From a virus, in IMG/VR virus record IMGVR_UViG_3300005663_000098, positions 1 to 42,271 of that record: 42,271 nucleotides of DNA; one strand, given 5' to 3'. Below are positions 34,624 to 41,811 of the stretch, piece after piece; the stretch's first letter is position 1; every line of letters starts with the position of its first letter. The position numbers and the translations under genes are program-made. Below the pieces are notes generated by a model that was not told the DNA's origin, did not search any database, and worked only from the letters and a program-made list of their open reading frames with translations.

Positions 34624-34707
34624 ATGACGCACCTTGCGACCGGCGAATTTCCTGAGTATAATCCGGCCAGCTTACAACGGCCGGTCAAAAAAGGAGGTGA
34701 AATATGA
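34624..34707 (+). CDS. 27-residue leader peptide of the recombinase gene
   Basis: Short frame with GAGGATG upstream; its stop overlaps the recombinase ATG (ATGA). A hairpin CCGGCC/GGCCGG (34663-34668, 34679-34684) lies within it, just before the strong recombinase ribosome site AAAAGGAGG. Translation of the peptide would open that hairpin, a simple coupling device (inference). A perfect TTGACA lies at 34598-34603 but lacks a good -10. Confidence 0.45.
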   Translation: MTHLATGEFPEYNPASLQRPVKKGGEI

Positions 34708-34719
34708 AACAGCCGGTCT
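34638..34719. repeat. cluster of GCCGGTC motifs before the recombinase
   Basis: GACCGGC at 34638-34644, GCCGGTC at 34680-34686 and GCCGGTC at 34712-34718, with a fourth copy (GACCGGC) downstream of the gene at 35731-35737. The copy at 34671-34686 (CTTACAACGGCCGGTC) matches the inverse of 35731-35746 in 15 of 16 bases. Likely binding sites for the recombinase or a regulator. Confidence 0.45.
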
Positions 34720-35672
34720 CTCAATTGTTTGAGGTTCATTTATCCTGCGGTGGATACGCAGATTCTACTATTGACAGCAAGCAAAGGGCAGTGAGATTTT
34801 TTATAAAGACTTTCGGAGATATGCAATTGGATGATGTTACCTACAGCCACGCCGAAGATTTTCAGAGAGTTTTGCGGCAGGGCGGCAGGGGGGCCAAGAC
34901 AATAAATCTCTACGTCATTCACTTGAACCACTTCTTTGAGTGGGCAATTAAGCGGCAATATCTCAAAGCAAACCCGTTTTTTGGTCTGCAACAATTGAAA
35001 GTGGAATATAAAAAACAGCCTATGTTCAGTAACGACGAGCTTATTCGCCTGTTCAATGTCGCACGGCTGAGGTGGAAAGTTTTGATTTGTTTTGGCTTAC
35101 TTGGCTTGCGGGAAGGCGAGGCCTTGAATCTGGTACGCACAGACCTGCACTTCGAGGATGAGTATATTTTGGTTAGTCCGAAAAAAGATTCATCTCAAAC
35201 CTGGCCCTGGCAGATTAAGAACCAAAAACAGGCGTATGCTCCACTGCCGAAGATTATTACCTTACCCGATATGGTAATACCTTTTCATTTGCTGCTCAAT
35301 AAGCTCATCGAATCGTTACCGCCCGGGCAGCCGTATGTGTGTGTTGTGCCGGATTACTACGCTAAACAAATCCGGCAGAAAAAAGAAGGGTCGCTTCGCT
35401 TTAGAAAAAAACTCTGTCCCTGGGGCAATTTCGACCGAGACTTTAAATCACTACTCAAAAAGGCCTGGATAGCCCCTAAGAGTTTTCACGATTTGCGGCG
35501 GACATTTGTAGATAAGTTGCGGAAGGCAGGATATGACCTGAAAGAAGTACAGACTTTAATGCGTCATAGCTCGATTTCGACAACAGCGAAGTATTATATC
35601 AACATTGAAGAACAGGAATTGGTTGCAAGGGTAAACAAGATGTTTGAACATTATGTGACTAACGTCCCATAA
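34704..35672 (+). CDS. int: tyrosine recombinase (integrase)
   Basis: 322 residues. N-terminal SAM-like core-binding domain (about 1-100, TINLYVIHLNHFFEWAIKR), then the catalytic domain with R136 (GLLGLREGEAL), a lysine near 160, H262-x-x-R265 (FHDLRRTF), H288 (LMRHSS) and the nucleophile Y297 or Y298 (TTAKYY). All key residues are present. It should integrate or resolve the phage genome. It has no arm-binding AP2-type N-terminus, so it is closer to Xer-like short recombinases. Strong AAAAGGAGG site. Confidence 0.92.
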   Translation: MKQPVSQLFEVHLSCGGYADSTIDSKQRAVRFFIKTFGDMQLDDVTYSHAEDFQRVLRQGGRGAKTINLYVIHLNHFFEWAIKRQYLKANPFFGLQQLKVEYKKQPMFSNDELIRLFNVARLRWKVLICFGLLGLREGEALNLVRTDLHFEDEYILVSPKKDSSQTWPWQIKNQKQAYAPLPKIITLPDMVIPFHLLLNKLIESLPPGQPYVCVVPDYYAKQIRQKKEGSLRFRKKLCPWGNFDRDFKSLLKKAWIAPKSFHDLRRTFVDKLRKAGYDLKEVQTLMRHSSISTTAKYYINIEEQELVARVNKMFEHYVTNVP

Positions 35673-37223: not shown

Positions 37224-37225
37224 CG

Positions 37226-37314
37226 CTCGGTAAACGCAAAGAGAGGGCTTAGGTCAAGCTGGGGCGTTTTACTGCCATGTCGAGGTTGACGGGCACAGGC
37301 GGTGGCAGGCCGAG
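37226..37314 (+). ncRNA. candidate three-way-junction RNA
   Basis: A closing stem CTCGG/CCGAG (37226-37230, 37310-37314) encloses two arms: AAACGC/GCGTTT (37232-37237, 37264-37269) and CTGCC/GGCAG (37272-37276, 37304-37308), each with a possible inner pairing. It lies in a gap without protein genes, 20 bases before the tRNA. No known family recognised; it could be a structured leader of the tRNA transcript. Confidence 0.35.
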
Positions 37315-37334
37315 AGAGTTTGAAAAGTGAATAA

Positions 37335-37454
37335 GGGGCAGTAGCGAAGTCTGGTTTATCGCCCCGGATTTATAATCCGGTGAAGAACCAAGGTTACTGG
37401 TTAGGACGCTCTCAAAGAACCTTGGAATCGCAGGTTCGAATCCTGCCTGCCCCT
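37335..37454 (+). tRNA. tRNA-Ile(UAU)-like gene with 49-base variable region
   Basis: Acceptor GGGGCAG/CTGCCCC (37335-37341, 37447-37453); TA at positions 8-9; D-stem GCGA/TCGC with GG in the loop; anticodon stem CCGGA/TCCGG with loop TTTATAA, anticodon TAT (37371-37373), reading AUA; T-arm GCAGG/CCTGC with loop TTCGAAT. The variable region is 37381-37429 (49 bases) with an 8-bp stem CCAAGGTT/AACCTTGG. Discriminator T, no encoded CCA. Variable arms in bacteria seldom exceed about 25 bases, so this is abnormal: a chimera, an insertion, or a new class. Confidence 0.75.
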
Positions 37455-41115: not shown

Positions 41116-41811
41116 ATGACAAGTCGATTTACACAAACGGAAAAGTGGGACGATGCCTGGTTCCGAGAGCTAAGTCCCAACGCAAAAGTTCTTTATTGGT
41201 ATATCTGGGATAAATGTAATATCGCAGGTTTTTGGGAGGTAGATTTGGAAGGAGCAGTGTTTCACACCAAAGTTTCTAAAAGGGGCATTGAAGGGGCTTA
41301 TGAGGAGCTTGCAAGGGGCTTTGAAATCAACGAAAGCTGTATTTGGGTACGGCGTTTTCTCTACCACCAGAAAAATTTGCCTCTTAATCCCAAAAATCTT
41401 GCTCACAAAGGAATTTTGCGACTCATCGATGAGTATAAATCTTTATTCCCTAACATCTTACCGTTATTAGAAACACAGTTGATAAAAGAGAATATAAAAG
41501 GGGCTACCAAGGGGCTACCAAGCCCCATAAGTAAAGGTAAAGGTAAAGGTAAAGGTAAAGGTAAAGGTAAAGGTAAAGGTAAAGAATACAGCGAGTCTTT
41601 TAAAGCTTTCTGGAAAAAATGGAAAGGCAGGTGGAATCCAGAGACTGATACATATACCAAAGTAGGCAAATACAAAGCTTTTGAAGAATGGGACGAATTC
41701 ACTATTGAAGACCAGCGCAAAGCGTGGGCTGCTGCTGACAAAGTTAAGGGCAAATACGTCCCTGATGCTTTCCGGTGGTTGAGAGATAGAGGGTATGATG
41801 ATTTTGGATGA
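41116..41811 (+). CDS. replication-type protein with Lys-Gly repeat linker
   Basis: 231 residues. The N-terminal domain (residues 1-110: TEKWDDAWFRELSPNAKVLY, IWDKCNIAGFWEVDLE) resembles the winged-helix domain of phage replisome organiser or initiator proteins. A linker of alternating Lys-Gly (about residues 139-156) comes from nine tandem GTAAAG units. The C-terminal domain (FKAFWKKWKGRWNP...AFRWLRDRGYDDF) is like DnaT-type helicase-loader ends. Probably recruits the host helicase to the phage origin. Confidence 0.65.
   Translation: MTSRFTQTEKWDDAWFRELSPNAKVLYWYIWDKCNIAGFWEVDLEGAVFHTKVSKRGIEGAYEELARGFEINESCIWVRRFLYHQKNLPLNPKNLAHKGILRLIDEYKSLFPNILPLLETQLIKENIKGATKGLPSPISKGKGKGKGKGKGKGKGKEYSESFKAFWKKWKGRWNPETDTYTKVGKYKAFEEWDEFTIEDQRKAWAAADKVKGKYVPDAFRWLRDRGYDDFG
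41500..41521 (+). repeat. tandem 11-mer duplication
   Basis: GGGGCTACCAA occurs twice in a row (41500-41510 and 41511-41521), ten bases before the hexamer array, inside the replication gene. The unit is not a multiple of three. The second copy can also fold with the following AGCCCC. Confidence 0.7.
41531..41584 (+). repeat. (GTAAAG)9 hexanucleotide repeat
   Basis: Nine perfect copies of GTAAAG encode the Lys-Gly linker. Slippage by whole units would keep the frame and change linker length. Confidence 0.95.

Follow-up and report, generated by a model that had tools for sequence, protein, structure and literature searches.

The allo-tRNAs possess a 12-bp acceptor branch that is divided 8/4 or 9/3 (Mukai et al. 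2017, as reviewed in PMC7609411). In nematodes, the nev-tRNA-Ile(UAU) carries a Leu-like variable (V) arm of 15-20 nt and is charged with leucine (PMC4300185). The V-loop has also been enlarged by engineering; in the V-Spinach tRNAs it received a large aptamer, and activity was only marginal (PMC7590224). Within the literature that we searched, which covers few subscription journals, we found no natural phage tRNA with a V-arm as long as the one described here.

The window, an IMG/VR virus record of 42,271 bases from environmental DNA, represents a phage that is probably temperate; its genes include those for a P22-type portal, a large terminase, a major head protein and a tyrosine integrase, together with YqaJ/ERF recombination genes and an SSB-like gene. 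No close cultured relatives of this phage were found, and host prediction through homology of the portal, integrase and ERF proteins pointed only to unrelated phages and plasmids, at 20-57% identity. Two proteins with a CxxCxxCC (zinc- or iron-chelating) domain are encoded in this one phage (1477-1785 and 37793-38098), the first of which matches slightly under the curated cut-off of the family. Additionally, a replication-initiation-like protein (41116-41811) contains a long Gly-Lys dipeptide repeat (GKGKGK...), which is a simple DNA repeat whose length could vary.

The Rfam tRNA model RF00005 matched positions 37335-37454 on the + strand with 56.9 bits over model positions 1-71, the gathering threshold being 29 bits (E = 8.2e-10 for the whole window and 1.6e-11 for 801 bases). 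An earlier note on this DNA had reported a 120-base tRNA with a UAU anticodon, and its coordinates proved right; the usual length of a tRNA is ~76 bases. The same note proposed a check with tRNA finders, and here the answer was divided, with a positive covariance match from Rfam and no tRNA reported by ARAGORN. Between them, ARAGORN and the Rfam search found no other tRNA in the window.

All parts of the cloverleaf lie on the + strand. The 5′ strand of the acceptor stem, GGGGCAG (37335-37341), pairs 7/7 with 37447-37453, and the 3′ strand CTGCCCC is followed by the discriminator U73 (37447-37454 in all). The D-arm GCGA-AGTCTGGTTTA-TCGC (37344-37362) is of the tRNA-Pro type, as seen from Rfam and from comparison with phage tRNA-Pro; the anticodon arm CCGGA-TTTATAA-TCCGG (37364-37380) presents UAU at 37371-37373; and the T-arm GCAGG-TTCGAAT-CCTGC (37430-37446) was placed by Rfam. 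Pairing in these stems is entirely Watson-Crick (acceptor 7/7, D 4/4, anticodon 5/5, T 5/5), in agreement with what had been claimed, and folding gives pair probabilities of at least 0.82 across the whole cloverleaf. Furthermore, the bases for the tertiary pairs U8-A14, G15-C48 (the Levitt pair), G18, G19-C56 and T54-A58 are in place, as is U33. The whole element folds with a z of -3.81, and 1 of 200 shuffles was equally good. A strict cloverleaf scan of the window and of 413 fetched loci (3.65 Mb, both strands), with the reversed sequence as control, returned 387 distinct matches. Because the reversed 3.65 Mb returned none, the cloverleaf is beyond chance; it is very probable that this is a genuine tRNA-type gene, and a chance fold is unlikely.

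The additional length resides in the variable region (37381-37429), which is 49 nt long, reads TGAAGAACCAAGGTTACTGGTTAGGACGCTCTCAAAGAACCTTGGAATC and contains the putative inserted segment of ~44 nt. An 8-bp stem formed by CCAAGGTT (37388-37395) and AACCTTGG (37418-37425), each with pair probabilities of 0.95-0.98, encloses a 22-nt loop, and the giant variable arm is thus as it was first described. Folded alone, the V region has a z of -2.16; since 1.3% of its dinucleotide shuffles hold an 8-bp Watson-Crick stem, the arm by itself is only moderately significant. Most V regions among the scan matches measured 4-5 or 11-23, and the greatest lengths were 32, 36 and the 49 of the window, which is the longest genuine V region among the phage tRNAs compared; a 142-nt match was rejected as a longer one, being two adjacent tRNAs read as a single one. 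The loci scanned are non-random, many having been fetched by patterns favoring UAU anticodons and long V regions, and the scan therefore yields no frequency; still, no V region above 49 surfaced. This is a single metagenomic record, and assemblers can join short repeats such as tRNA genes. Nevertheless, a chimera put together from two tRNA genes during assembly is highly improbable, as the 7/7 acceptor and the perfect V-stem would both have to be coincidental.

The body that bears this arm is class I with a 7/5 plan (7-bp acceptor, 5-bp T-stem). Its D-arm, GCGAAGTCTGGTTTATCGC, differs by one base from that of a phage tRNA-Pro (L291, L294), which has GCGAAGCCTGGTTTATCGC. On removal of the ~44 nt, a 76-nt RNA with the variable loop TGATC remains and folds into the same cloverleaf, supporting the insertion origin that had been among the earlier suggestions. 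The Pro-like D-arm, the retention of the bases for tertiary pairs and the normal folding of the insert-free RNA argue for a class I base plan with an insert, and it is likely that the arm is an insert of ~44 nt in the variable loop of a class I body. An unusual class II tRNA, also suggested earlier, is disfavored by the D-arm and the G15-C48 bases. Moreover, the V stem stands behind linkers of 7 nt and 4 nt, and U73 is neither the A73 of Leu nor the G73 of Ser; class II (Leu/Ser/Tyr) was consequently rejected. Other candidates were rejected in turn. An archaeal-type intron would need a bulge-helix-bulge, which is lacking at the insert ends, where the best candidate has a 2-bp outer and a 0-bp inner helix. 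Group I introns are far longer than the ~44-nt insert, which is much too short to be one. A tRNA-Sec is expected to have an 8-bp acceptor and G73, features that the window tRNA does not show. For an allo-tRNA, the 7-bp acceptor and 5-bp T-stem do not fit, and base 8 (T) is unable to pair with base 65 (C).

The insert itself retains a trace of a tRNA. The stretch GGTTAGGACGCT (37399-37410) has exactly the sequence that a phage tRNA-Glu shows at D-arm/26/27, bearing out the remark that part of the V region looks like a D-arm, and it stands in tRNA register with the T-arm, its distance to the T-stem being exactly 19 nt, equal to that in the phage tRNA-Glu. The proposed fusion of two tRNAs gains support from this in-register similarity (shuffle P 0.008, in a register test chosen post hoc, after the match had been seen) but not from similarity of the insert to tRNAs with position ignored (shuffle P 0.12, not significant); the D-arm likeness had been flagged from the sequence before the register test. 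The D-arm relic preserved in register makes recombination of two tRNA genes the most likely origin of the insert, and with moderate confidence we would derive it, on grounds of sequence, from such a fusion. Two near-identical 11-mers that had been thought to bound the arm are indeed present, but they are not independent of the stem and are a by-product of the near-palindrome AACCAAGGTT; AACC-AA-GGTT is almost self-complementary, and its inverted partner AACC-TT-GG therefore resembles a direct repeat too. A mobile or repeated insert was rejected, as the window holds no second copy and only chance matches of 9-13 bases.

A tRNA-Glu-like relic in register would also fit decay: neighboring phage tRNA genes may have recombined to leave a non-decoding fusion, a cloverleaf pseudogene surviving by chance. 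U73, the absent CCA, the poor Ile identity and the want of a conserved homologue of the insert fit such a history. However, all stems are Watson-Crick where a random fusion would break the 7/7 acceptor, and the new V-stem is perfect, whereas a neutral relic should carry mismatches; we regard this pseudogene as an unlikely account.

The discriminator is the final base, 37454 (T), and the DNA tail TTAG encodes no CCA. A(-1), A(-2) and T(-3) could pair with T73, T74 and A75, and an A(-1)-U73 pairing could disturb 5′ processing, which counts against a working tRNA. In E. coli, tRNA-Ile has a strong discriminator determinant, C4-G69, a U12 pair, C29-G41 and G16 (PMC9976931). The window tRNA has what bacterial Ile requires in the anticodon loop (U33, A37 and A38 in TTTATAA), and outside the loop it is unlike these E. 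coli determinants (U73, G4-C69, G12-C23, G29-C41, U16).

AUA is the phage's top Ile codon (355/830, or 30.5 per 1000), with a 43% share of Ile codons as against the 34-36% expected (third-position composition, fourfold sites); it is low in the major capsid gene (5/25 Ile) and the integrase (4/18), and a fibre-like gene makes heavy use of it (45/75 Ile codons). At 68 sites aligned with AUA in relatives, Val and Ile each account for 29% of residues and Leu for 7%, Ser falling outside the six commonest. Because relatives mostly carry Val or Ile at these positions, AUA most likely means Ile in this phage, to judge from the alignments, and this would favor an Ile tRNA, provided that the RNA decodes. 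The argument that a phage copy would help to read AUA holds insofar as AUA leads the Ile codons, but is weakened by a relative, G002, that is nearly as AUA-rich (26.8 per 1000, share 0.41) and in whose 45-kb record a tRNA search found none, although such records may be fragments. We put forward only tentatively, as a sequence-based reading slightly less probable than its negation, that an RNA with its arm retained translates AUA as Ile.

Alternatively, the V-arm might make the RNA behave as a class II-type tRNA that receives Ser or Leu and inserts that residue at AUA, in the manner of the nev-tRNA-Ile(UAU). The combination of anticodon and V-arm is that of the nev-tRNAs (PMC4300185), and another phage does possess a class II, Ser-like tRNA with a UAU anticodon, G73 and encoded CCA (L008:1240-1334, +). 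This is the only tRNA found in its 45-kb record, which makes little use of AUA (6.9 per 1000), and its 21-nt anticodon arm plus TGAA is identical to that of the window tRNA. Charging with Ser or Leu is nonetheless improbable here in view of U73, the Pro-like D-arm, the long linkers and the alignment of AUA sites with Ile/Val, Leu reaching just 7%.

Our preferred reading, modelled on these sequence features and with chances that we judge to be even, is of a candidate AUA-reading class I tRNA of the phage, bearing a V-loop insert of ~44 nt from tRNA recombination as a retained arm. Under this model, ~44 nt would have entered the V loop of a class I UAU tRNA by recombination of two tRNA genes. 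Host tRNA-processing enzymes would probably release the tRNA from a longer transcript, and the host would also add the CCA. The mature RNA most likely retains the insert as an 8-bp arm, since there is no known means of removal, and the arm would project from the elbow, the site where class II V-arms project. Its likeliest use would be as an extra AUA-reading tRNA in infection or lysogeny. The marginal activity of the V-Spinach tRNAs (PMC7590224) and the low use of AUA in the major capsid gene speak against this reading.

The surroundings of the gene suggest one further role. It is flanked by two same-strand genes, lying 111 bases past one and 32 ahead of the other, and a search of the + strand near it found no sigma-70-like promoter. 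Just 5′ of it, a seemingly non-coding stretch (37224-37317) has a fold of -33.8 kcal/mol, equalled by 3 of 200 shuffles, and is without a match in Rfam. The tyrosine integrase (34704-35672, +) is ~1.7 kb upstream; a phage tyrosine integrase and a phage tRNA thus occur together, as in tRNA-dependent lysogeny, which further involves disruption at attB, through a short common core, of the host tRNA of the same isotype. The tRNA, the only one found in the window, may replace a host tRNA broken by integration or substitute for nuclease-cut host tRNAs, the arm aiding escape. Temperate phages with a phage tRNA that replaces a host tRNA are documented (PMC10865867), and there are phage tRNAs that escape defences directed at tRNA cleavage (PMC10264068, PMC11555353). 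Conversely, a replacement tRNA should obey the identity rules of the host, and no nuclease gives a direct sign of itself. We consider this role in lysogeny or defence rather unlikely.

Relatives in other phages, which the earlier note had proposed seeking, did not emerge: no homologue carrying the same insert was found among the viral or GTDB contigs searched, and selection on the arm is therefore unproven. Cultured phages gave no whole-length match. The D-arm pattern recovered no second gene copy from viral and GTDB contigs, only tRNA-Pro, tRNA-Ser and non-tRNA matches, and the 26-mer 3′ end was absent from GTDB species genomes. No tRNA was found in the records holding the YqaJ neighbors L002 and L003, and no relative of the 86-aa downstream protein.

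Long V regions do occur in other phage tRNAs, namely L014 (UAU, 32 nt), L106 (UAU, 28), L180 (UAU, 23) and L100 (UCU, 36), with L082/L100/L117/L125 forming an additional UAU set; their common UAU is partly selection, because they were fetched with UAU patterns. L014, L180 and L100 combine a long V region with encoded CCA and favor our preferred reading of an arm-bearing AUA-reading tRNA. Separately, ARAGORN reports phage tRNAs of over 80 nt with long V regions and non-Leu/Ser/Tyr anticodons (Lys, Asn, Thr, Met, Asp, Phe) at L057, L073, L089, L092, L094, L116, L117, L125, L162, L173, L182, L186 and L223.

The 24-nt T-arm/acceptor end of the window tRNA recurs in three other viral contigs, each time in an RNA of 98-175 nt that resembles tRNA-Leu but is over-long and broken in the middle (L187:10187-10291, +; L188:733-908, -; L189:6816-6913, +). 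Similar 5′ ends occur in L208 (745-941, -), L264 (at 5242, -) and L236 (at 1601, -). All six have a Leu-type D-arm, and in most of them the acceptor and T-arm are paired and enclose a broken middle of 50-130 nt. With 41.3 and 34.3 bits, L187 and L189 exceed the tRNA threshold of Rfam and are the only tRNAs that a tRNA-family search found in their records; the records holding L188, L208, L264 and L236 yielded none in that search. The phage of L187 is distantly related to the window phage (ERF 39%, SSB 33%). Of the 63 ends recovered by a search for the T-arm plus CTGCCCC, strict rules assigned 15 to cloverleaf-ended genes of normal length and 5 to over-long ones, where shuffled acceptors would lead one to expect 0.24 of the latter; the remaining 43 failed the rules either way. 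Four phage tRNAs have anticodon loops of 41-57 nt closed by a 5-bp stem, with 0 in reversed controls (starting at L094:2481, L223:295 and 1165, and L359:3376, all +; Glu UUC, Arg UCU, Ile GAU and Tyr GUA by position), and these tRNAs look as though 34-50 nt had been inserted near position 37.

One could speculate that the arm is a working module and that phages carry enlarged tRNAs and tRNA-like RNAs as a set that has so far gone unrecorded, with a role beyond plain decoding, although we hold this to be unlikely. Such a set might comprise inserts of ~30-130 nt in the V-loop or anticodon loop that common finders skip, and might serve in protein binding, in baiting or escaping tRNA-cutting defences, or in splicing by an as yet unknown route. 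ARAGORN, and possibly other standard finders, miss over-long phage tRNAs, and phage tRNA counts are hence incomplete. Should the 120-base form be made and prove functional, it would extend the natural load on the elbow of a ribosome-active tRNA; if it is non-decoding, we have a natural tRNA fusion, and its intact stems call for a different explanation.

Compared with bacterial tRNA-Pro, the window tRNA shares the D-arm GCGAAGyCTGGTTTATCGC and ATC-GCAGGTTCGAATCCTGC, both as in L291, and differs in its UAU anticodon, G1-C72 and long V region. Like V-Spinach and other aptamer-tagged tRNAs it bears a V-region hairpin, but those are engineered (PMC7590224) and this one is natural. The other long-V tRNAs are likewise phage-borne, mostly UAU and equipped with V-region hairpins, yet their arms are shorter, their bodies different and, unlike here, most encode CCA. 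The nearest published kinds that we found are the allo-tRNA(UAU) and the nev-tRNA-Ile(UAU), and a defining feature of each fails here. A UAU anticodon with an added V-arm is common to the nev-tRNA (PMC4300185) and the window tRNA, but the former belongs to nematode genes and has an arm of 15-20 nt, against 49 nt and U73. With the allo-tRNA(UAU) the window tRNA has in common an origin in environmental DNA, the UAU anticodon, a long V-arm, an unusual cloverleaf and, in the UAU group, the lack of a known function; it differs in joining a V region of 49 nt to an ordinary 7/5 plan and a class I core.
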